Source: Gammaproteobacteria bacterium
GTDB taxonomy: Bacteria > Pseudomonadota > Gammaproteobacteria > Eutrophobiales > Eutrophobiaceae
Assembly (NCBI GenBank): GCA_028281365.1
Contig: JANQJZ010000056.1
Coordinates: forward strand, 1-61,226
DNA: 61,226 bases
Direction of reading: 5' to 3'
Position 1 is the stretch's first letter, and each line of letters starts with the position of its first letter. The translations under genes were made by a program, and so were the position numbers. Shown here piece after piece: positions 43,319 through 55,616 of this stretch. The notes below the pieces were generated by a model that was not told the DNA's origin, made no database searches, and was given only the letters and a program-made list of their open reading frames with translations.

Positions 43319-44881
43319 TTAAAATTGGTAAGTAAGAGACAAGTTAAGTCCGGAATTATGTCTCAATGAACCAAAATTTCCTGGCCGTTCGTCATCACCA
43401 CCAAACTCGGTGTACCAAAGACCCCAGCGCCAGTGGCTGCCTGGTTCCCAGCGTATTGCAGGTTGTATGAAATAACTGCTTCCACCAGCCTTAAACCCAG
43501 TTGGATTGATAAAACTTTTATCGCCAAAGTTATAGAAAAACGTTAGATCCGTAAAAATCTCGTCGTACCGACCACCAGGCCCTGCCCAGGCCTGACCCAG
43601 AAGTAGTCTAAAGATAGTCTCAGTCTCGTCGATTTTAGTGAGGCGCAGTCCGTACGCTTCTCCGGCTAACAAATCATCGTCACTAACACCACGAAAACGC
43701 TGTTCGATCGAGGCCGATATTGTCATAGCCCTACTCTTACGAAACACGATCGTGGGTCGGTCAATAGCTATTGCATAACCGATCTCATCTGTCTCAACGT
43801 GGGTATTGCCAGCACGAAGACGTAAGAACTGAGTTGTATCAATGCGGTCAAACGGCCGATCGAAATTGTACATAAACTCTGTACGAATAACGGCCTTCGC
43901 AGCGGGGATATACGAGTTGGTCGAGAAACCCAGGGTGTGGTAACTCGGATATTCGCGTTTAACCAAGGCAGATGGCGCACCTGCTGCACCGACTACAGGA
44001 CCAGTACCACTCCGTAATGTATTGATACCCGTATCGGATTCTGGTCGAACCATCCACACCAACGAGTAACCTGTACCCTTGTAATTGCCCACTAGTCGAA
44101 CACCCGCACTTACACCATTCTCGCCATCTTCAGTAAGATCGTCAATGGTAACAAAAGCCGGGGCACCAACCACATCTAACGGCGAATTACCATCCGGCAG
44201 ATGTGTGGGGATAAAGCTAAGCGCGTTGGGACTTATGAATGCCTCAAGCTGGTAATCGGGATTTTGCGGGAAGGTATAAGAACCTCGTAGCGCCCACTTG
44301 GGGATACGGATGTTATCAAACGCTTCACGCCCACCAAGTTCATTAAATACGTGAAAGCTTAAATCAAGTGGATTAAAGCTATCAAGCAAACGCGTCGGAG
44401 CCAGATCACCCCAGACTATGTTTTGACGACCAAGGCGAAACCACCAGGGTCCGGATTCATAGTCAGCTCGAACTTCCCAAAGTTCTGCAATCGCATCACG
44501 TCCACCTGAACGAAGCGTATCAACATTTTTTCCGACACCTGGAAATACGTCCCAGTCTGTAATGCCAACAACCTCAGTGGTTAGATCCCACTGATAGCGG
44601 CTTCGTGCGAAAAACTTAAGGCCCTTTGCTTTTGGTTTCCAATTGAGATCGAGAACGCCCCATTGTTTCACCTGCTGCACATGACTATTGAAAGTCGTGC
44701 TGGGATTATTATTCACCGGGCCAGTACGATAATCCGCCTGGGCACGTAAAAAACCAACCCCAGTCAAATCACCCCAAGTATCTGAACGATAATTGAATAA
44801 ATCTGCATTAGCGGTTCCAGCCCAGGTCAAAATACTCAGTGTAAGAAGTACAGGAACACTCTTGGTTAATTTAATCAACAT
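43319..44881 (-). CDS. DUF1302-family outer membrane beta-barrel
   Basis: 520 residues: a signal peptide (VPVLLTLSILTWAGTANA) then DLFNYRSDTWGDLTG and a long run of amphipathic strands ending in LNLSLTYQF with a terminal Phe, as in outer-membrane barrels. WWFRLGRQNIVWGDLAPTRLLDSFNPLDL is a hallmark of DUF1302 (cited by GRQNIVWGD and DSFNPLDL). The family accompanies DUF1329 and RND genes in loci for hydrophobic compounds. It is 45 bases downstream of the DUF1329 gene. Probably a channel or lipid conduit. Confidence 0.9.
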   Translation of the reverse strand: MLIKLTKSVPVLLTLSILTWAGTANADLFNYRSDTWGDLTGVGFLRAQADYRTGPVNNNPSTTFNSHVQQVKQWGVLDLNWKPKAKGLKFFARSRYQWDLTTEVVGITDWDVFPGVGKNVDTLRSGGRDAIAELWEVRADYESGPWWFRLGRQNIVWGDLAPTRLLDSFNPLDLSFHVFNELGGREAFDNIRIPKWALRGSYTFPQNPDYQLEAFISPNALSFIPTHLPDGNSPLDVVGAPAFVTIDDLTEDGENGVSAGVRLVGNYKGTGYSLVWMVRPESDTGINTLRSGTGPVVGAAGAPSALVKREYPSYHTLGFSTNSYIPAAKAVIRTEFMYNFDRPFDRIDTTQFLRLRAGNTHVETDEIGYAIAIDRPTIVFRKSRAMTISASIEQRFRGVSDDDLLAGEAYGLRLTKIDETETIFRLLLGQAWAGPGGRYDEIFTDLTFFYNFGDKSFINPTGFKAGGSSYFIQPAIRWEPGSHWRWGLWYTEFGGDDERPGNFGSLRHNSGLNLSLTYQF

Positions 44882-44926
44882 TTTATTCTACCCCCCCTTA
44901 GTGATAGAAAATTGCTATTGCTTTTT

Positions 44927-46222
44927 CTAGCGACCTTGCTTTTGCAAAAACTGTGTATTTAACATTTCAGCATTCAATTCATCCTCAGGTAAGTTCTTGG
45001 TTGCGTAAGTCATATCCAAGTTGAATGAATTACCGGATTGGTGGTTGAAATATTCCACCGCCGTTAGTTCTACGTAATTACCGCATTCACCCTCGGTTCG
45101 CTTGCGCGGATGGACTCCTGACACCCACAACTTGCCCTGTGAGTCATCATAATCACCCCACCAAGTGGTATAGGTTGCGGCATCAATATACAGTGTCATT
45201 TTGGAATAAATGCGATCCACTGTTCCTTCTTTGGGTGTAGCTTCAATTACAAATGTATCCCGCAACTCAACCTTTGCTCCCTCGCGATATTTACCTTTGA
45301 TGCGTGGGACATACTTCTCATCTCCAGAATTTTCCGGATTATCTCGCGATATAACACTCAGCATTGGTTTTTGCGCCACCAGTTTGAAATCCCATAAACT
45401 AAGCGGATCATTGAACAAGTTCAGATTGACGTTGCGCAGATCAGAGCCATCTAGAGAATCGTCACGTTGCGCTGTCGATAAGCGCTGTACACGACGCAAC
45501 ACCGGAACATAGGCATACGCATCTGGCAGTCTTGACTGATCCTGGTAGAAAATATTCAGGACGGAGACCCCCTTAAGGTCATAAGGCGCTTCGAAGACGA
45601 GGACTTCGCGACGTAGTTCGCCTAGGAATGCAGGATCTTCTCTTACCGGGTTAATACAAACGCGTGAGGCCGTGAACACAAAACGCAGATGGGGAATAAT
45701 CTCCTTATAGGGTCTACCCTCACCATCTATCCATTGTGTATTTCCCCATTCATCCAGATTGTCGTGATCGCGGTAGAGCCAATTTGACATCACTTCCAGT
45801 CCATTCTTTGGATGCATAATTGGAAAACCGCCATACCAGGCACCGCCGTCTTTCGCGTAGACACTGCCATCGGGTTTTATATCGGCCTGACCTGCGTATT
45901 TATGGGTATATTCTACCAAGGCCGGGATAATCAGCTCTTCTGAAGGAGTATGGGGATTTACAATCCATTCTGCCCCATCGACAGTGAGGTTATACATTCC
46001 CGCAGGCATCAGGTCCTTAACTGACTCCACATTACCTGGAGTGACTTTTGACCCAGTTGCAATCTTACCATTGGTGAGTTCCTCAATCGTAGGAACCGGG
46101 TTTACCCACGGAAATTTTTCTTTATCTGTCTGTTTCTGCGATTCCGCAAATACTGTCTGGCAAACCAAAATTACGAGCATTGAAATTGCCAAACTAATCC
46201 ACTTATATGGTGCGACAAGCAT
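44927..46222 (-). CDS. DUF1329-family periplasmic LolA/B-like protein
   Basis: 431 residues from the ATG at 46222, chosen for GAGGAGGGAG just upstream. A signal peptide (ISLAISMLVILVCQTVFA) is followed by the DUF1329 pattern: GGAWYGGFPIMHPKNGLEVMSNW (as GGFPIMHP), RRVQRLSTAQRDDSLDGSD and YIDAATYTTWWGDYD near the C terminus. DUF1329 is a large LolB-like fold thought to carry hydrophobic ligands. The shared promoter element E lies about 300 bases upstream on the same strand. Confidence 0.9.
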   Translation of the reverse strand: MLVAPYKWISLAISMLVILVCQTVFAESQKQTDKEKFPWVNPVPTIEELTNGKIATGSKVTPGNVESVKDLMPAGMYNLTVDGAEWIVNPHTPSEELIIPALVEYTHKYAGQADIKPDGSVYAKDGGAWYGGFPIMHPKNGLEVMSNWLYRDHDNLDEWGNTQWIDGEGRPYKEIIPHLRFVFTASRVCINPVREDPAFLGELRREVLVFEAPYDLKGVSVLNIFYQDQSRLPDAYAYVPVLRRVQRLSTAQRDDSLDGSDLRNVNLNLFNDPLSLWDFKLVAQKPMLSVISRDNPENSGDEKYVPRIKGKYREGAKVELRDTFVIEATPKEGTVDRIYSKMTLYIDAATYTTWWGDYDDSQGKLWVSGVHPRKRTEGECGNYVELTAVEYFNHQSGNSFNLDMTYATKNLPEDELNAEMLNTQFLQKQGR

Positions 46223-46243
46223 AACTCCCTCCTCTAGTTTCAA

Positions 46244-46785
46244 ACATGGGGCTCAGTTATATATGTAAAATGTATAACAACTTCAGTTATTAAACTTTTA
46301 GTAAACATCTTTTAGTAAACATACTTTACTATTATTACATTTATTTTACAATCTTATATGCCTCGAATTTGATATTTAGAGCCGATTAAAAATAAGAGTT
46401 TTAAAATATTTAGTACAAAAACCGCTCCAGCTAAGATTTGGAAGGACATATACTTGATATATTATCGTTTTATCAGGAATATACGAACAAAAGCCGCAGA
46501 ATTTGGGGACGGATGAATTAAGAAAGCTACTTGAATTTTAATAAACATATTGATATTTATGAAAGTATTAATTAACATAACGTACCGTATCAGGAATAGT
46601 TTTTTGGCTATTTTGAATATTTTTATATAAGCCAAAAGCATAAATAGAAAACGGATTTCATCATTAAATTTGGTCTGCTAGCGTAATTACAGATAGTAAA
46701 GTACTGTTAGGTAGAAATGTAATTAGAATTTCCTAACCTTCGATATGTAGGCTTAACAACATCAGGTACCCGTATTCATAACAAT
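46244..46785. other. Divergent intergenic region DUF1329 / AhpD selenoprotein
   Basis: 542 AT-rich bases between divergent genes. Element E (minus) lies in the middle. No additional gene seen. The promoter of the plus-strand gene was not identified. Confidence 0.5.
46517..46545 (-). promoter_or_regulatory. Shared promoter element E (upstream of DUF1329-DUF1302)
   Basis: On the minus strand: TTTATT (46545-46540), 17-base spacer, CTTAAT (46522-46517), with CAAG-TAG-CTTT beginning at 46533, exactly 7 bases past the -35 hexamer as in elements A-D. TTCAAG and CTTTC match element C. The -35 is the weakest of the set. Confidence 0.55.
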
Positions 46786-47892
46786 ATGACTGTGTATAGC
46801 GACAGCCACTATAGCGTCAGAGATAAGATTGATCAGACGCACAAAAAAGAATTGAGTTTGCTTTCTGGACCAGGGACATGGTGGACAGGCGCTCAACGTG
46901 CCGCAATGGTAGCAGAAGCGCGTAAGGCGCGATGTGAAGCAGGATTACAGGAATCGATTGCAGAGGATGAGGTATTGATCGATGCAAATTTACCGGACGC
47001 TGCACGTACTTTAGCGCGTAAGGTGGCCTTGATGGAAGGCGTTGATCGTGCTTTTTTCGATAGTATGGCACCTTCTGAACTAAGCGAAGAAGAATATGTC
47101 GAGGCGGTAGGTGTAGTATCACGTAGTACAAACCTCGATATATTCGCCAAGGCAATCGGTGTGCCTTCAAGGAAACTTAATCGAATTAGCGATGGAGAAC
47201 CTACACGTAAACGGCCCGTGTCGCTTGCAAACGATGGTTTTTTTGTGCCAACAATCCCGACAACCAAGGCCGGTGGTGGTGAAGATAGTAAAAAGCTTTA
47301 TGGTGGTGCATCTGTCTATAATATTTTACGCGGGCTAAGCCTGGTACCATCTGAGGCGAGTCCGGTAATGGGACTGGTCATGTCACAGTACGTTATTCCA
47401 CCGCAATTTTATAATTACGATTTTACCTTTGACCCATCAATAACCCGTGCACAGGTGGAGTTGGTTGCTTCTAGGGTATCGGCCCTTAACGATTGCTTTT
47501 ACTGAACTGCGTGGCATGCAATGCTGCTCCGTGAGAGCGGCGAGACAAAAAAGGTCGATTACAATTTAAAAGCTATAGTCGATCTGGAACTGGATAGTGG
47601 CGTAGAAAACGGTGATGCACTACTCGCATTTGTAGATGCAATTAATGGGACTGACCAAAATGAACTTGAGCGCGCACGTGCGGTAGTCGAAGAACGCATG
47701 GGTGGCAACGCAGTGGTTGAGGCAGCCGTCGTTACTGCCAACTTCAGTATGCTTGACCGTGTCGCTAACGCCGTCGGTATTCCACTTGAAGATTTTGTTG
47801 TTAACAAAACTCAGGATTTCTGGGAAGAATTAGGTCTGGATAATTATCCATCGGCAAGTTACACGCCCGAAGGCGGTTTTAAGTACATGTAG
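46786..47892 (+). CDS. AhpD/carboxymuconolactone decarboxylase-like selenoprotein with in-frame TGA (Sec240)
   Basis: The frame runs 46786-47892 with a single internal TGA at 47503-47505, giving 368 residues if it is read as selenocysteine. The N-terminal part resembles one CMD-type domain (TLARKVALMEGVDRAFF, EYVEAVGVVSRSTNLDIFAKA). The C-terminal part is an AhpD-like domain whose redox motif is C237-F-Y-U240 followed by TAWHAM, where relatives have C-x-x-C-x3-H. Downstream, GCTGCTC (47523-47529), loop CGTGA and GAGCGGC (47535-47541) form a 7-bp stem with GU in the loop, 17 bases after the TGA, as in bacterial SECIS elements. The part after TGA has no own SD. A nonsense mutation is the alternative. 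Confidence 0.8.
47503..47541 (+). promoter_or_regulatory. SECIS-like element with its UGA codon
   Basis: UGA at 47503-47505, 17 bases, then a hairpin of seven pairs (one U-G) closed by the loop CGUGA. Spacing between UGA and loop (about 24 bases) and the GU in the apical loop agree with bacterial SECIS rules. Confidence 0.7.
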
Positions 47893-47932: not shown

Positions 47933-48559
47933 TTATCCCAGAAGCTGCACGATCTCTTTTCTAATCTGTCCGTTCAATTTGTTTGACTGAGCAAGGATTT
48001 CATCGATCTGATTTTTTTTCTCTTTCACCCAGGGAAGGTCCTTGATCGAGGGCAGGTTAATTCTGACATTCATCACAGCACCTTCTACACCGGCATAAGC
48101 AGCCTGGGCAGCTACACCAAGATCACTCACTGTATTGCTGTTAGCCTTGCCGGTAATCGACTTGATCCTTTCCAATACGCTAAAGCAATTCTGTGCCACC
48201 GTATAGGGAATCTCCGATGCCTTTTTAAAACCGACCTGTATAGCCTCTTGTCGTTTTAGCTTTTCCTTCTCAGTATCTTTAGGCATCCGAAATGCTGCCA
48301 TAACCTGATTAAACGCCTCGGTATCTTCATCTACCAGAGAAGTAAGAGATCTCCTGACAAGCTCAGATTCTTCAAGAGTTTCAGCCATTAGAGACTCAAC
48401 CTCCTCGTAGCCTTTTTTTCCGATAGTCAATCTGCAAACCATCGATACGAGTCCTGCGCCCATTGAACCAGAAACGGCCGCGACACTACCACCGCCCGGA
48501 GCCGGAGAATCCGCAGCCAATTCTTCCAAAAAATCTTTCATCTCAAGCTTTATCAGCAT
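47933..48559 (-). CDS. fchA: Cyclodeaminase/cyclohydrolase-family (FchA/FtcD-C type) protein
   Basis: 208 residues from the ATG at 48559, with AGGGGAG upstream. FLEELAADSPAPGGGSVAAVSGSMGAGLV is the family signature (seen here as SPAPGGGSVAA), and VDEDTEAFNQVMAAFRMP follows. Such proteins are formimino-THF cyclodeaminases or methenyl-THF cyclohydrolases. It begins 10 bases after the ftcD stop. With FtcD it would turn formimino groups into methenyl-THF plus ammonia. Which of the two activities applies is not decided by sequence reading. Confidence 0.88.
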   Translation of the reverse strand: MLIKLEMKDFLEELAADSPAPGGGSVAAVSGSMGAGLVSMVCRLTIGKKGYEEVESLMAETLEESELVRRSLTSLVDEDTEAFNQVMAAFRMPKDTEKEKLKRQEAIQVGFKKASEIPYTVAQNCFSVLERIKSITGKANSNTVSDLGVAAQAAYAGVEGAVMNVRINLPSIKDLPWVKEKKNQIDEILAQSNKLNGQIRKEIVQLLG

Positions 48560-48569
48560 CTCGCTCCCC

Positions 48570-49472
48570 TTAAATTCCCACGAGATGATTTTCGACAATC
48601 TGATCTCTATCGAAATCTTCCAATTTCAAAAAATGCTCAGCACAGCTGATTAAAGCCTCTTGCGGAAGCATACCGACGATCTGTGTGCCAACTACAGGGA
48701 CTCCCCAGCGCTTTGCTTCGCTTTCAACCACCTGATAGACCCGATAGATTGGGGTATTTACAGTATCAAACATATTCATGGAAACAGCGACCTGATTTCT
48801 ATCAGACAGAGGAAAACCGACGGCCCTAATTGTTGAGAAGCCGCCACTGGGTCCTCTAACATTTTTGGCGATGGCCTTGGCTATTTTCACATCCGTGGTA
48901 TCGAGAACCACATTAACTGCTACAAGCCCGGTTGTTGCTGCACTGACTATAGTTGCACCTGCGGAAGGGTGAAGTGCTGCTGGGCCTATATCCGGCGCCC
49001 GTTCTGGAAGATGCGCCACTTCCTTCAAACCTTCATATTGTCCTTTCCTTATATAGTCGAGAGTCTTCCTCTCTTCTGCTCGGGCATTATCGCCACTAAA
49101 ATACACGGGGACTTCAAACCTTTTATAAATCTCTGCACCGATCTCCTCAGCTAAAGCGACACATTCTTCCAAAGTAATGTTAGCCAGTGGAAAAATAGGG
49201 ATCGTATCCTGCGCACCTATTCGCGGATGGGCACCACTCTGTTTTTCCATATCGATCAATTCATAGGATTTACTCGCCATATTAAGTAATGCTTCTTTTA
49301 GGTTAGCCGGTTTACCAATCGCCTCGATGACCGTCCTATTGAAATCAGCATCTGGATAAAAACCGATCAATTTTACACCTTCGGCATCACGAATTTCGGC
49401 CACAATTGCCTCAATGACGTCCGCTCTTGTACCATCACTGAAGTTTGGTACTGCATGTATATATTGTGACAT
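48570..49472 (-). CDS. ftcD: Glutamate (or glycine) formimidoyltransferase
   Basis: 300 residues. VPNFSDGTRADVIEAI is the family start, SGAHPRIGAQDTIPIFPL the active-site stretch with its conserved His, and GPSGGFSTIRAVGF the C-terminal subdomain. It transfers a formimino group from formiminoglutamate, or formiminoglycine in purine fermenters, to THF. The transferase and cyclodeaminase are separate genes here, as in anaerobic bacteria, not fused as in mammals. No hut genes are in view, so a histidine role is not supported locally. Confidence 0.92.
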   Translation of the reverse strand: MSQYIHAVPNFSDGTRADVIEAIVAEIRDAEGVKLIGFYPDADFNRTVIEAIGKPANLKEALLNMASKSYELIDMEKQSGAHPRIGAQDTIPIFPLANITLEECVALAEEIGAEIYKRFEVPVYFSGDNARAEERKTLDYIRKGQYEGLKEVAHLPERAPDIGPAALHPSAGATIVSAATTGLVAVNVVLDTTDVKIAKAIAKNVRGPSGGFSTIRAVGFPLSDRNQVAVSMNMFDTVNTPIYRVYQVVESEAKRWGVPVVGTQIVGMLPQEALISCAEHFLKLEDFDRDQIVENHLVGI

Positions 49473-49701: not shown

Positions 49702-50292
49702 TTACTCTTCTGCTCCACGTAACAACGGTGACCCACCATGCGCCTCTCCCTCGGTAGTTATTCCTAGGCCGATAGTCATGCGGTTGGCAAAAGCGTAATA
49801 ACATGCCACCTGGTTGATCTCCAAAATTTCACCATCGTCCCAACCAGCATCACGTAATTTATTAATGTCGGCTTCGGTAACACTAATCGGTTTAACTGTT
49901 AATGCTTTGCAATACTCCATCGCTGCGATTTGTTTGGCATCATACATTTCCGGCAAGTTTCCAGCTTCCAATGCAGCTCGAAGTTTTGCAGAACGTGTAT
50001 CATCATTCACCAGTCGTACCATCTCCTGATTATGATGAGAAATACAATATTCGCATTCATTGATCAGGCTGACATACAAACCCATCGCTTCGAGAAACCA
50101 AACATCAATATTATTGCCTGAATGATGCATTATATTTTTGAAAACACTAATATGGCCTTCAGCAGTGTGCGGCCTCAAACTATGCGCTACTATAATGTTA
50201 TCAATGATGTCACCCGGGCTCTTAACTTGCTCATAGATTTTTTTCAAGCGCCCTTCTGCTTCTTTGTAAGATATTGTCTTTATCCAAGTCAT
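49702..50292 (-). CDS. AhpD/CMD-family peroxidase-like protein
   Basis: 196 residues. INECEYCISHHNQEM holds the C-x2-C-x3-H redox motif of AhpD-like and peroxidase-related proteins, and EAAGLY-like segment LEAMGLYVSL precedes it. GRLKKIYEQV and a C-terminal RMTIGLGITTEGE complete the fold. AhpD-type proteins reduce peroxides or lipoyl disulfides. AGGAGAG precedes the ATG. It is the Cys counterpart of the nearby Sec-containing relative at 46786. It starts 67 bases past the RND stop. Confidence 0.85.
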   Translation of the reverse strand: MTWIKTISYKEAEGRLKKIYEQVKSPGDIIDNIIVAHSLRPHTAEGHISVFKNIMHHSGNNIDVWFLEAMGLYVSLINECEYCISHHNQEMVRLVNDDTRSAKLRAALEAGNLPEMYDAKQIAAMEYCKALTVKPISVTEADINKLRDAGWDDGEILEINQVACYYAFANRMTIGLGITTEGEAHGGSPLLRGAEE

Positions 50293-50358: not shown

Positions 50359-52701
50359 TTACCTCCACGCTACAACGCGCGCCTCTTTACGGAATTTTGG
50401 TTTGAAATAAATCATTGCCGAGGGGATCACCAGTAATGCACCAAGCAAATTAAATCCTACAACCAATGAGAGCAGCAGCCCCATCTCCGCCAAAAAGCGA
50501 AAAGAGGATAAGAAGTACCATAGTCCTGAACCGATGATCATAACGCCCGCTGTAAATAAAATAGCACGCCCTGTAGATCGCAGCGCCGTCGCCACAGCTG
50601 TTTCATAACTTCCGCTTGCTTTCTGCTCTTGCAGAATGCGCGTCAATAGATAGATACCATAATCAATGCCCATACCCATACCGATCGAGATGACGGGCAG
50701 TGTGTTGACATCAATCCCAATCCCCATAAAGACCATCACGCTAAAAACAACAAAATTAGTTGTAAAGAGTGGTGCAATTAAGACACCTGCTGCAAACCAG
50801 GACCTGAACGCCCACAAACACAACAGGAAGATCGTGATAGTGACTATTGTTAATATGAGTGGATACTTAATGGAGACTTCTTCATTAATGGCCGCGATCA
50901 CTCCCCCAAGGCCGGAGGCAAGACGAAATCTAGGATAGTCTTCACCATCCAGGTTGTTCACTGCTATGTAGTCACGAATACGGGTAACTACAGTTTCCAA
51001 CGTTTCGCCGCGTCGGTCGGTAAGTATCAACGTAATCGCAGCAGTATGGTAATCATCGCTCACGAAACGGGAAAAGTCACCAGGATCACTGCCACGTAGC
51101 AGGAGGGCTGCAAACTGAGACGTATCTCGGAGTTCGTCTGGTAATCTCTGCCACTTCACGTAATTGCCACTGAGCCGTCTCTGTACAACAGGAAGGAAAT
51201 CAGCAAAGGCCCTACTCCCCTTAACCTCCGGGATGGATTCCATGTGCCGTTGAAAATCACGCATTTTGGCAAGAACAACAGGATCACGAAGACCAGGTTC
51301 CGGTTTTTCAGTTTCAACGATAACTTGTAGCTCATTCGTCCCGATAAAGGACGAATTGATCTGGCTCACTGCCACGTTGTACTCAGAATCAGGCCACAAG
51401 ACAGGGGTGCCTGGATTAATGTCACCTACGCGGATTTGAGTAGAAATACTGATAGTGGTCACAACGATGGCAAGAAAAGCTATAAGTATATGGCCAGCGT
51501 GTTTAGGAATAAAACGACCACCGAGCCAGTCAAGAAATACCGTGATTTTACTTTTCTCAAGACGAAGTTTGACCTGCTTACCCCCACCACCACCGAAAAT
51601 ACCAACTGTTACTGCAATTAGAATGGTCACGGTCAAAAGGTTGCTCATTGACCAGAAGCTACCAAAACCCGCCAACTGGTTCAGCAAGGTAACTGATGAA
51701 AGAGCAATTATTGAAATACCCAATGCATCGGTTACGATACCCAATGTCCCCGGTATAAAAAGTTTACGAATTAAAACCTTACCTTTTTCCTGCGACGTTA
51801 AATCTTGATCCTGCAGTTCAACCATGCCCTCCATGTTCTGCACACTATGGCTAAGGCTACGTGACATAAGCAACACAGGGATGATCAGGATCAATGGATT
51901 CAGGTTCCAGTCGAAAGCAGAGGCAAAACCGATACCCCAGAGTGCCGCCATGATTGTTCCCATGAGAGGCAGGAAAGTGAGTGACAAATTTCGCATGTGC
52001 AGGTAAAGCAGAATAAACATCAGCGTTACGGTTGCAACTATGATAGTCAATATCTCCGCCATAAAGTTATCGACCCAACCCATCAACATCGGTTGTCCAG
52101 CTAAAAAGATTTCGTAATTGTCGTCACTGTATTGTGCCTGGAGCTCACGCAGCTGATCGAAAACCTCGTCTTGATTAAACAGCTTTTCGATAAAGTTGGC
52201 ACTAAGTAAGGTCGATTTACCATCAAGCGAAACCAGAGAGCCTATAACACCAGCATCACTGGCATTGCGTCGAAAAACGCGAAGCTCATCCTCAGTGGTC
52301 GGTATATCTTTGGGCATCAGCGTATTAACCCTGACGTAGCTACCGCTGGTATCAAGGACCTTAATCTTACGAGATGCGATGGATATGACCTGATCGTGGT
52401 TAACACCAGGCAATGTATGAAGGGCCTTGGTCAATTCTCTTACTTTCTGCAAGGTTTCATGGTTATAAATATCTCCCTCACCGCGGAGCCGCAACATCAT
52501 GAAGATTGTAAGGGGACTACCGTACTGTTCTGAGTACTGCTTGTTTACCTGAATAATGGGGTGATCTACAGGGTGAAGATCGTTGAAATCAGCATCAAAC
52601 TTTATTCCAGTTGCTGACCAGGCAAACACTCCAGTTATCGCGAACAGGGTCACGAGGATGAATTTGCGATAATTAATGATGATATTGGCTATGCGCTCCA
52701 T
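50359..52701 (-). CDS. MMPL/RND-family transporter
   Basis: 780 residues with about 12 membrane segments and two periplasmic loops. The start (IIINYRKFILVTLFAITGVFA) is a membrane segment, FDADFNDLHPVDHPI is the usual RND loop entry, and GIGIDVNTLPVISIGMGMGIDYGIYLLTR is the SSD-like motif in the second half (as SIGMGMGIDYG). Related RND proteins move hydrophobic molecules with DUF1329/DUF1302 partners. It begins 6 bases after the YCF48 gene. Substrate and direction unknown. Confidence 0.9.
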   Translation of the reverse strand: MERIANIIINYRKFILVTLFAITGVFAWSATGIKFDADFNDLHPVDHPIIQVNKQYSEQYGSPLTIFMMLRLRGEGDIYNHETLQKVRELTKALHTLPGVNHDQVISIASRKIKVLDTSGSYVRVNTLMPKDIPTTEDELRVFRRNASDAGVIGSLVSLDGKSTLLSANFIEKLFNQDEVFDQLRELQAQYSDDNYEIFLAGQPMLMGWVDNFMAEILTIIVATVTLMFILLYLHMRNLSLTFLPLMGTIMAALWGIGFASAFDWNLNPLILIIPVLLMSRSLSHSVQNMEGMVELQDQDLTSQEKGKVLIRKLFIPGTLGIVTDALGISIIALSSVTLLNQLAGFGSFWSMSNLLTVTILIAVTVGIFGGGGGKQVKLRLEKSKITVFLDWLGGRFIPKHAGHILIAFLAIVVTTISISTQIRVGDINPGTPVLWPDSEYNVAVSQINSSFIGTNELQVIVETEKPEPGLRDPVVLAKMRDFQRHMESIPEVKGSRAFADFLPVVQRRLSGNYVKWQRLPDELRDTSQFAALLLRGSDPGDFSRFVSDDYHTAAITLILTDRRGETLETVVTRIRDYIAVNNLDGEDYPRFRLASGLGGVIAAINEEVSIKYPLILTIVTITIFLLCLWAFRSWFAAGVLIAPLFTTNFVVFSVMVFMGIGIDVNTLPVISIGMGMGIDYGIYLLTRILQEQKASGSYETAVATALRSTGRAILFTAGVMIIGSGLWYFLSSFRFLAEMGLLLSLVVGFNLLGALLVIPSAMIYFKPKFRKEARVVAWR

Positions 52702-52707
52702 GGCCGG

Positions 52708-53904
52708 CTATCTCCCGACATTATTTGTTAATTGTGAAGGTAAGGAAAAGTCACGAAAGCTCTGCTTTCCTAAAGCCAGGAAGTGCCCTTGACCCAGGTG
52801 TTGCATATCTACGATCCAGCTATCCCCAAGCGGTACCACGTCTTTCCAACCTGCCGCCGCCACAACATTGTATTCATCAGGATTAGCAGACGTGGGCAAA
52901 TGAAGTACAGTACCGAGGTCACCTGAGACCACAGAACCACCCTCATATAACAAAATGTCGTACAGATCCGTCTCCCAGTTAGAGGATTCTCTCCAGGTCA
53001 AACCATTATCAGACGTAGCAATGATTAATCCCGCCTGACCAACTGCAAAAGCGTGACTGGGATCAGCAGGATCCGCTACCACCGCGAATAAATGGTTGTC
53101 GGTGAATTGTCCACCGCGGCGTTTTTCGAAGGTCCTCCCTCCATCCGTAGATAACAGTACCAATCCATACTCGCCCACTACCCAAACATTGGAATTTATT
53201 ACTACGGCATCATAAAGGTGAGCTTCCACTGAACCATAGCTTTTCCACACATCAGCTAATATCTCCTCCCAGGGGATATTAATTGGTTCCCAATTATTAC
53301 CGCCCGAGTCAGTTCGCCAAAGTAGACCGAATGAGCCTGTAATTATGCCCTTGCCGTCAGGTTCAAGCACAATGGACATAAGGTCCTGGTCTTGTGAGCT
53401 GTCATCGTAAATCTGCTCTGTAATGGGAGAATCAATTTCTACCCAAGCCTGATCTTTTTTCCCAGACTCCTGATCTTCGCTTACAGAATCGCTTTCGGTC
53501 TCGGTGCGATTGTTCCAGGTATGGCCTCCATCCACTGTTTCCAGATAAGTACCACTGGCCCCAACCGCAACTCCGTTGTGATCATCAACAAAAGCAACAC
53601 TATAAAGGTCCTCGTTCGTGGGAGAAGTAATTTCCTTCCAGGCAATATGGTCACCTGGTGAGCGAAAGATCCTGCCAAACCTACCTACAGCAATTAAGCT
53701 ACCATCACTCAAGGCGGTTATAGAGTAAGTTGAGTCGTGTCGCGTTAAGATTATTTCGGAAGCATTGCTCTCATCGACCGCTGCCACCTCCATGTTCGCC
53801 ACAAATATTATCCAACCCGAGACGGCAAATGCCATTAGCAATACCAATCCCATAATAAAATTGATCCTGCGATGATTCTGTGTTGTCTGCACTTCGTTAC
53901 CCAT
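52708..53904 (-). CDS. YCF48-like beta-propeller protein of the RND module
   Basis: 398 residues from the ATG at 53904, supported by GAGGG six bases upstream; a GTG at 53916 is the longer option. A single N-terminal membrane anchor (INFIMGLVLLMAFAVSGWIIFVA) is followed by BNR/YCF48 repeats such as DGSLIAVGRFGRIFRS, HNGVAVGASGTYLETVDGGHTW and DNGLTWRESSNWETDLYDILL. YCF48 is best known in photosystem II assembly, but similar propellers accompany MMPL transporters and DUF1302/DUF1329 proteins in Gammaproteobacteria. Likely a periplasmic scaffold for the RND permease that follows. Confidence 0.87.
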   Translation of the reverse strand: MGNEVQTTQNHRRINFIMGLVLLMAFAVSGWIIFVANMEVAAVDESNASEIILTRHDSTYSITALSDGSLIAVGRFGRIFRSPGDHIAWKEITSPTNEDLYSVAFVDDHNGVAVGASGTYLETVDGGHTWNNRTETESDSVSEDQESGKKDQAWVEIDSPITEQIYDDSSQDQDLMSIVLEPDGKGIITGSFGLLWRTDSGGNNWEPINIPWEEILADVWKSYGSVEAHLYDAVVINSNVWVVGEYGLVLLSTDGGRTFEKRRGGQFTDNHLFAVVADPADPSHAFAVGQAGLIIATSDNGLTWRESSNWETDLYDILLYEGGSVVSGDLGTVLHLPTSANPDEYNVVAAAGWKDVVPLGDSWIVDMQHLGQGHFLALGKQSFRDFSLPSQLTNNVGR

Positions 53905-54548
53905 TGTGTCCCTCACTGTAAATATGATTTTTTTTATTTAATTAACTAATTAGGCACAACCAAATTACCTAACTAATAACCTTTTACTAACTCAACAATA
54001 ACGCGTTTAGTGAGCGACAACTTCTTATTTTCCTGGATCTATGTGTATGCAGGCAATGTTATATGCTAAAAGTTCGAGCTGTTAAAGAAAATTGCCCGGA
54101 TGCTAAACACACACCGGCATTTTCAATTCACAACCAGCTTTTCTAACCAGACATTAAACTTACCAGCGAAATAGTAGGGAATTTCAACGCTAAGACGTAA
54201 CTAAATGAACAAATACCCTTAGCTTTAAAATCTACCACTATTGTTAAATTATTTTTATCGAGTATCTGGCACTCTGCCTGTCCCTAAACTTCATCTGGAT
54301 TTTAACCTTTGATGCATATTTGTCAAGTTACTTGCATATCATTCACAACTTAATCAGACGCTAAAATTACTTGCATTGCACTATAGCTGCTATATTAGAT
54401 TTTATCGGGCAAATTAGTACTATTAATTCAGGTGAACGCATACTCTAATTTTAGGACCATACGAAAAGTCAATTACACCTATAAGCGTGCATTCCAGAGT
54501 GCCAATGTTACGCTACAAAGTTTAATTACAGTTTTAAAAACTATTTAA
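53905..54548. other. Divergent intergenic region YCF48 / HAD-RibK
   Basis: 644 bases between divergent transcription units. Element D lies at 54312-54340. A further sigma-70-like pair (TTGCAT at about 54374 then ATTAGA) lies nearer the HAD gene. No gene seen. Confidence 0.5.
54312..54340 (+). promoter_or_regulatory. Shared promoter element D (upstream of HAD-RibK)
   Basis: ATGCAT, 17-base spacer, CATATC, with CAAG-TTA-CTTG at 54324-54334, the only copy where the dyad is a perfect palindrome. It matches element C from GCATATTT through CAAGTT. Because the dyad is symmetric it may also serve the divergent YCF48-RND operon. Confidence 0.6.
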
Positions 54549-55616
54549 ATGGATAACCTGGAAAGCTTTGCAGTCATATTCGATGTCGATGGAACACTGC
54601 TTGACTCTATGCCAACCTATTTAGAGATCATGAACAGAGTTTGTCACGAACTTGACTGGCCTATCCCCAAGGCAGGTTTTATGCGAGAGGTCATTACTTA
54701 TGGTCATAACCCAGTGGAAGTATTGTTTGGGTCTATCGACGATATAGATACATACACTCAGCTACTGAATGATAAAGCTTCCGAACTATGGCACAAAATA
54801 TCCAATGATATGACTAAACCCTTTCCTGATGCTTTGTCGGCACTTTCGACTTTACAACAAGCTGGTTTACATTTGGCTATCGTTACTGACTCAAGTGAGA
54901 TGACTGTAAATCAGATCACCGAGCTACCGGATTGCCCAAATTTTGATGTGGTCATTACTAACGAACATGTTGATACAAGAAAACCATCACCTGCTGGAAT
55001 AGAATTAGCGCTAAATGAAATTGGCATCACACCTGATGCAGCAATTTATATAGGTGACAGTCCCGCTGATATTGAAGCTGCTCATGCTGCGGGTGTTCGA
55101 GTTATTGGCATTACGACAGGACCGTCCCAACGAGAAGACTTGGAGCTCAATAAGCCTGACTATATTATTGACACACTTTCTGAGTTAACTAACTTAATGC
55201 AATTTGGAGCGCCAAAAGTATATGGTTCTCTTACCCGTGGTAAAGGGGAAGCAGCTAACTTTCTGGCTGTTCCATGGGTAAAGGCTAAACTGGAACCACT
55301 CTTAGATAGTCACTATTATCCTGGTACAGCAAATCTAAAACTTAGTCCGGGTGCTGCAAAGATGCTTACTAATTATCGCAAACACCCAAAACTTGTCTGG
55401 AACGAAATTGAGCCGGAAGAAGGGTTTTGTCGAGCTATATGTCATCATGTAGAAATAGAATGTAATGGTCATGGCCCTATACCTGCTCTTACCTTGGTAC
55501 CTGAGGTTTCCAATTATCCAGACAGTAAGCTTGAACTCATTTGCAAAATACCTTTACGTTCATACTATTCACTCGAAGATGGCGACGTGCTGACTGTACA
55601 TTATCGCCACCATTAA
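54549..55616 (+). CDS. HAD phosphatase fused to CTP-dependent riboflavin-kinase-like domain
   Basis: 355 residues. The first ~215 are a HAD-superfamily phosphatase: FDVDGTLLDS (Asp12, Asp14), IVTDSS, KPSPAGIELAL and YIGDSPADIEAA. From about 222 to the end is a domain like the archaeal CTP-dependent riboflavin kinase (PF01982): VYGSLTRGKGEAANFL, then YYPGTANLKLSPGAAKM, where archaeal enzymes have YPGTLNIKL, and SYYSLEDGDVLTVHYR at the end. The fusion could make FMN, or release a phosphate from a flavin or prenyl precursor. It is co-directional with an unrecognised gene 10 bases on. The kinase assignment rests on motifs, not on alignment. Confidence 0.78.
   Translation: MDNLESFAVIFDVDGTLLDSMPTYLEIMNRVCHELDWPIPKAGFMREVITYGHNPVEVLFGSIDDIDTYTQLLNDKASELWHKISNDMTKPFPDALSALSTLQQAGLHLAIVTDSSEMTVNQITELPDCPNFDVVITNEHVDTRKPSPAGIELALNEIGITPDAAIYIGDSPADIEAAHAAGVRVIGITTGPSQREDLELNKPDYIIDTLSELTNLMQFGAPKVYGSLTRGKGEAANFLAVPWVKAKLEPLLDSHYYPGTANLKLSPGAAKMLTNYRKHPKLVWNEIEPEEGFCRAICHHVEIECNGHGPIPALTLVPEVSNYPDSKLELICKIPLRSYYSLEDGDVLTVHYRHH

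Follow-up and report, generated by a model that had tools for sequence, protein, structure and literature searches.

An in-frame TGA very probably encodes selenocysteine in a bacterial protein with the predicted build of a fused AhpD dimer

The stretch of DNA analyzed here (the window; 61,226 nucleotides, contig JANQJZ010000056.1 of the gammaproteobacterial assembly GCA_028281365.1) encodes what is very probably a selenoprotein of two fused AhpD-like domains, with the redox pair in the C-terminal one (Table 1). As a sequence-only reading had claimed, the open frames 46786-47505 and 47521-47892 share one phase, with nothing but a TGA at codon 240 between them, and translation gives the motif C-F-Y-U-T-A-W-H for residues 237-244. 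We consider it almost certain, from comparison of homologous sequences, that this codon is read as selenocysteine (Sec); an annotation taking it as a stop would truncate the protein inside its active site. Gene integrity, family, Sec machinery, RNA-level constraint and domain duplication were all computed here, and the points newly added for this family are the RNA-level evidence, the lack of Cys copies across a wide sampling, the Sestrin-like fused dimer and a split into two clades.

Table 1. Features of the selenoprotein gene, in window coordinates
Feature	Position	Strand	Basis
Complete CDS, 368 codons + stop TAG	46786..47892	+	Translation; NF041238 match; homologous starts align at M1
TGA codon, almost certainly read as Sec240	47503..47505	+	Same codon TGA in 99/99 homologous loci fetched
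Cys237, first residue of C-x-x-U pair	47494..47496	+	Invariant in 60-row alignment A2
His244 of C-x-Y-U-x3-H, presumed proton relay	47515..47517	+	Invariant in A2; role by analogy with AhpD/Sestrin (PMC4674687)
bSECIS hairpin, 7-bp stem + 5-nt loop CGUGA	47523..47541	+	Fold; covariation; codon-level constraint
N-terminal AhpD-like domain, residues 1-148	46786..47229	+	hhalign, column view, structure; CxxC of sister clade absent
C-terminal AhpD/CMD domain, residues 149-345, predicted Sec active site	47230..47820	+	PF02627; 6k40 Z 13.3 over 149-343

The gene joins an already catalogued selenoprotein family. The read-through protein matches NCBIfam NF041238 (AhpD_rel_CFYUT) with 324.4 bits against a cut-off of 175, over model positions 1-356 of 357. 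The model is also matched by 60/60 members of alignment A2, in which Y239 and T241 are invariant along with C237 and H244. NF041238 is the selenoprotein family that was called "hypothetical protein 1" on its prediction from the Sargasso Sea in 2005 (PMC1088965; PMC13188914, Table 1). Hence, the proposal of an AhpD/CMD-like selenoprotein in the sequence-only reading is supported and also refined, in that the protein belongs to a described family, is not new in kind and has two fused domains. The cut-offs of the AhpD model TIGR00777 (17.4 versus 191.95 bits) and the peroxid_rel model TIGR01926 (36.4 versus 81.8 bits) were not reached.

With regard to mechanism, we propose that the bSECIS hairpin closely following the UGA brings in SelB with its bound Sec-tRNA(Sec), such that Sec would be inserted at position 240. 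The C-terminal domain would hold the Cys237/Sec240 redox pair, Tyr239 and His244 in an AhpD-type helix-turn-helix, and the N-terminal domain, having no redox pair of its own, is probably a structural or regulatory partner. By analogy with AhpD and Sestrin2 (PMC4674687), either Sec240 or Cys237 might attack the substrate, with Tyr239 and His244 relaying protons. The C-x-x-U pair could thereby reduce a hydrophobic organic substrate, e.g., an alkyl or lipid hydroperoxide, through a selenenylsulfide (Cys-Sec bridge) intermediate that would then be reduced by the cellular thiol system. We infer the substrate, reductant and physiological role from such parallels, and on balance lean toward a hydroperoxide reductase. 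Another reductive role for the Sec protein, such as reductive dehalogenation or some other attack on aromatics, is conceivable but rather unlikely. By fold, one of the nearest single-domain structures is the CMD debrominase Bmp8 (6ohi, Z 12.6, or 13.2 with the sister clade), but AhpD peroxidases reach equal or higher scores (6k40, Z 13.3). Genes for a UbiD-type decarboxylase, DUF1302/DUF1329 proteins and MMPL proteins lie nearby, and genes of acyl-CoA metabolism turn up repeatedly around some homologues, but the neighborhoods are not conserved, making context weak evidence. Across the homologues, clustering of gene neighbors gave no constant partner, and none that names a substrate is conserved, the top neighbor family occurring in at most 9 of about 80 homologous loci.

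In the window, the gene is solitary on its strand and is flanked by DUF1329/DUF1302 genes on one side and formiminotransferase-cyclodeaminase genes on the other. No clear Shine-Dalgarno sequence was seen before the ATG at 46786; the upstream stretch 46244-46785 is very AT-rich (28% GC), and promoter-like matches near the gene do not clearly outnumber those in shuffles (6 versus 4.4). Horizontal transfer was considered on the basis of composition (47.2% GC in the gene versus 40% in the window) and rejected for want of evidence, as the immediate neighbors are alike at 45-47%. On the opposite strand, the DUF1302, DUF1329, MMPL transporter and YCF48-like genes at 43319-46243 and 50359-53916 appear to be one set, which is split by the formiminotransferase-cyclodeaminase genes (47933-49472), a Cys-type CMD gene and the selenoprotein gene, as if interrupted by an insert. 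The Cys-type gene, with the motif C-E-Y-C, does exist where the sequence-only reading had placed a Cys paralogue-like gene (49702-50292, minus strand), but it encodes a distant single-domain peroxidase-related protein and no Cys orthologue; it matches TIGR01926 with 81.5 bits, just below the cut-off of 81.8, and, weakly, a YciW-related (seleno)protein model. Farther along (54549-55616, plus strand), a HAD hydrolase is fused to the CTP-dependent riboflavin kinase domain PF01982, which is mainly archaeal.

The homologues examined at the TGA amount to 99 loci, 19 from the window's own order (window included) and 80 from named GTDB genomes of Pseudomonadota, Myxococcota and one Acidobacteriota. 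In alignment at position 240, a check proposed with the sequence-only reading, all 99 have TGA (Sec) at the same codon and none has Cys or any other residue. It is very improbable that the two frames are separate proteins, or that regulated termination yields a 239-aa form beside the full-length product. The second frame has a possible start of its own, the ATG at 47521, and some termination is usual at Sec UGA codons. However, the split falls inside the AhpD helix-turn-helix motif, and the family is full-length in all relatives; moreover, Pfam CMD (PF02627) is detected on residues 208-255 (31.5 bits; cut-off 23) only with the pieces joined, the first piece alone reaching 14 bits and the downstream frame alone having no significant Pfam match.

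There is next to no likelihood that the gene is a pseudogene or a product of sequencing error, that is, a gene for a CxxC enzyme whose second Cys codon has turned into a nonsense codon: although a single TGA lies between the frames and Cys-to-TGA takes one base, the region downstream of the TGA is conserved as well as that upstream (identities to homologues of 42/42% and 47/49% on its two sides), the genome has Sec machinery and the same TGA recurs in all these loci, its presence in independent genomes of several phyla excluding the read error that the sequence-only reading had kept in view. A genome-wide change of TGA to a sense codon (e.g., for Trp) would likewise place a TGA within a conserved gene but is just as remote, since TGA is the ordinary stop of 10 other long frames in the window, indicating that the code is not generally changed in this genome, and since related AhpD enzymes have Cys, not Trp, at this residue of C-x-x-[C/U].

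Across 34 whole genomes with the family, every full-length copy likewise has the TGA, with up to six hits per genome; the stop-free hits are fragments or remote single-domain relatives, and tRNA-Sec scores above the cut-off in 32 of the 34 genomes. Apparent double-TGA copies in these genomes were considered as double-Sec proteins and rejected, the extra TGAs being ordinary stops or lying upstream. A genome scan with a single sequence found no copies, but the alignment-based scan did find homologues; sampling by class and phylum added no copy beyond the window's own genome, suggesting that the NF041238-type family is rare, with a patchy distribution. Abundant Cys homologues are said to exist for nearly all selenoproteins (PMC13188914). 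The present family appears to be Sec-only within the sampled copies; because for "hypothetical protein 1" the 2005 paper (PMC1088965) did list Cys homologues, we make this claim for our sample and not for all databases. The lack of a Cys version among the sampled copies is unusual for selenoproteins and suggests that the reaction needs selenium.

The machinery for Sec insertion, for which selA, selB, selC and selD had been named as the genes to look for, is present in the same genome (2.2 Mb in 76 contigs, 100% complete, 0.46% contaminated). The selA gene (C45:11224-12588) scores 605 bits. The selD domain (295 bits) lies inside a 756-aa fusion, behind a pyridine nucleotide-disulfide oxidoreductase domain (L132:3238-5508); this Ndh-SelD fusion is a known arrangement (PMC2398784). 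The selB gene is in two pieces, the end of contig C45 (19976 bp) carrying model positions 1-217 (198 bits for this N-terminal part) and the start of contig C5 carrying 220-578; the two probably represent one gene cut by an assembly gap. Directly after selB comes tRNA-Sec (C5:1279-1367), with 74.7 bits against a gathering threshold of 47. A second AhpD-type selenoprotein gene of this genome (L132:8771-9568, contig C45) ends shortly upstream of selB. Its 265-aa product has the motif A-C-E-Y-U-I-D-A-H and two CMD stretches, and its TGA is followed by the hairpin CUGCC-GGUC-GGCAG; the best NCBIfam match is TIGR01926, at 78.5 bits just below the cut-off of 81.8, and there is a weak, sub-threshold Pfam sestrin match (22.6 versus 29.4).

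Folding recovered the 7-bp hairpin with a GU-containing loop that had been noticed after the TGA, with 17 bases intervening. Its parts are GCTGCTC (47523-47529), the loop CGTGA (47530-47534) and GAGCGGC (47535-47541); the seven pairs include one G-U and become eight if one more outer pair is counted. The bSECIS model has a loop of 3-9 nt with G in the first two positions, a stem of 4-16 bp and a distance of 16-37 nt between UGA and loop (PMC13188914); here the loop has G at position 2 followed by U, on a stem of 7 bp, 24 nt from the UGA. Judged by its stability, the hairpin is unremarkable (z -0.77), 82 of the 2344 TGA trinucleotides in the window (3.5%) are followed by a bSECIS-like hairpin of the same length by chance, and an Rfam search of the hairpin gave no match at the gathering threshold, only a tRNA. 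It is its conservation in homologues, and not its stability, that rules out chance.

There is no indel between the TGA and the hairpin end in any homologue, so that the columns are directly comparable; the comparison comprised 87 distinct hairpin sequences, some records being present in both homologue collections. The codon for Leu248 is CTC in 95/97, with an entropy of 0.14 bits versus 1.7-2.4 at other conserved Leu columns, and the homologues use only CGT or CGG for Arg249. Although residue 250 may be A, E, V, L, M or G, the third base of its codon is G in 86/87. Stem pairing explains these codon choices and protein constraint cannot, pointing to constraint at the RNA level. Pairing in the 7-bp stem holds for 89.9% of cells versus 83.9% in shuffles, slid versions pairing in 30-51% only; its covariation is above that of all shuffles (0/500 reach the observed value), and four stem pairs show compensatory changes on both sides. 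By our reading, some Alphaproteobacteria can form the stem if one U is bulged out.

AlphaFold models of the window protein (pLDDT 85.7, pTM 0.89) and of a sister-clade member (pLDDT 93.9, pTM 0.93) are all-helical with two AhpD-like halves, and the protein as modeled is a tandem AhpD dimer fused in one chain. With hhalign, the N-half and C-half of the sister clade align at E 9.6e-5 (probability 58%), with the N-terminal CxxC on CFYU, and the N-halves of the two clades align at E 1.4e-56. The helix boundaries of the sister model agree, a helix at 32-45 preceding C48 and one at 225-238 preceding C241. Over the full length, human Sestrin2 is the best structural match, at Z 17.8 and 3.1 A over 245 residues (model 1-333), with Z 16.3 in the case of the sister-clade model, and single-domain AhpD proteins come next at about Z 13. 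By sequence, there was no match to Pfam sestrin (PF04636), CMD PF02627 alone being reported at E up to 1, and a profile search of solved structures retrieved no sestrin chain.

The two clades are a full-support split in a 75-row tree, 52 rows having the N-terminal motif C-x-x-C-x2-R-K-x-A-L-S-P and 23 lacking it, with a single change of motif label. The window protein is in the motif-less clade, where its nearest relative is a gammaproteobacterial copy with 47% identity. On this unrooted tree, loss of the motif seems more plausible than gain. As the absent motif sits where AhpD has its redox pair, the window's clade probably has one active site per fused dimer. One tentative possibility is that NF041238 consists of Sec-only, Sestrin-built fused dimers in a two-site (CxxC + CxxU) and a one-site clade, the silent half of the latter perhaps sensing or binding partners; this would be a bacterial parallel of the redox/signalling split of Sestrin, with the halves swapped.

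Several parallels are offered by known systems. NF041238 shares the full-length match at nearly twice the cut-off, the CFYUT motif and the downstream bSECIS, whereas the N-terminal CxxC-RK-ALSP motif of its larger clade is lacking in that of the window protein. The AhpD-like proteins of TIGR01926 (2prr, 6k40, 2oyo) share the fold of the C-terminal domain and the C-x-Y-C-x3-H site, but they are single domains that form a dimer and, in the solved ones, use Cys, whereas the window protein is predicted to be fused and to use Sec. Fused AhpD dimers of bacteria include YciW and a Rokubacteria CMD protein (PMC11429811); YciW and NF053654 (GroundWater_YciW), whose name implies selenoprotein members, are likewise fused double AhpD proteins, but their sequence families are distinct from that of the window protein, on which NF053654 had no hit with E of 1 or lower. 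Our literature search found no paper joining the NF041238 selenoproteins with a fused-dimer, Sestrin-like build. Sestrin2 (PF04636; 5t0n, 5dj4) likewise has two fused AhpD-like domains, colinear over residues 1-333, and its C125/Y127/H132 have the C-x-Y-x4-H spacing of the window protein (PMC4674687). However, the C-terminal domain of Sestrin has lost the helix-turn-helix and has an acidic DDYDY hinge (PMC11429811), whereas the window protein keeps the helix-turn-helix with CFYU, has no DDYDY in its translation and probably carries Sec. With 9% identity and no sequence-level link, the window protein is Sestrin-like in build and not a sestrin. Both have one active and one inactive half, the active one being N-terminal in Sestrin2 (PMC4674687) and, by our prediction, C-terminal in the window protein, whose fused-dimer build offers a bacterial comparison for the origin of the catalytic and non-catalytic AhpD halves of Sestrin.
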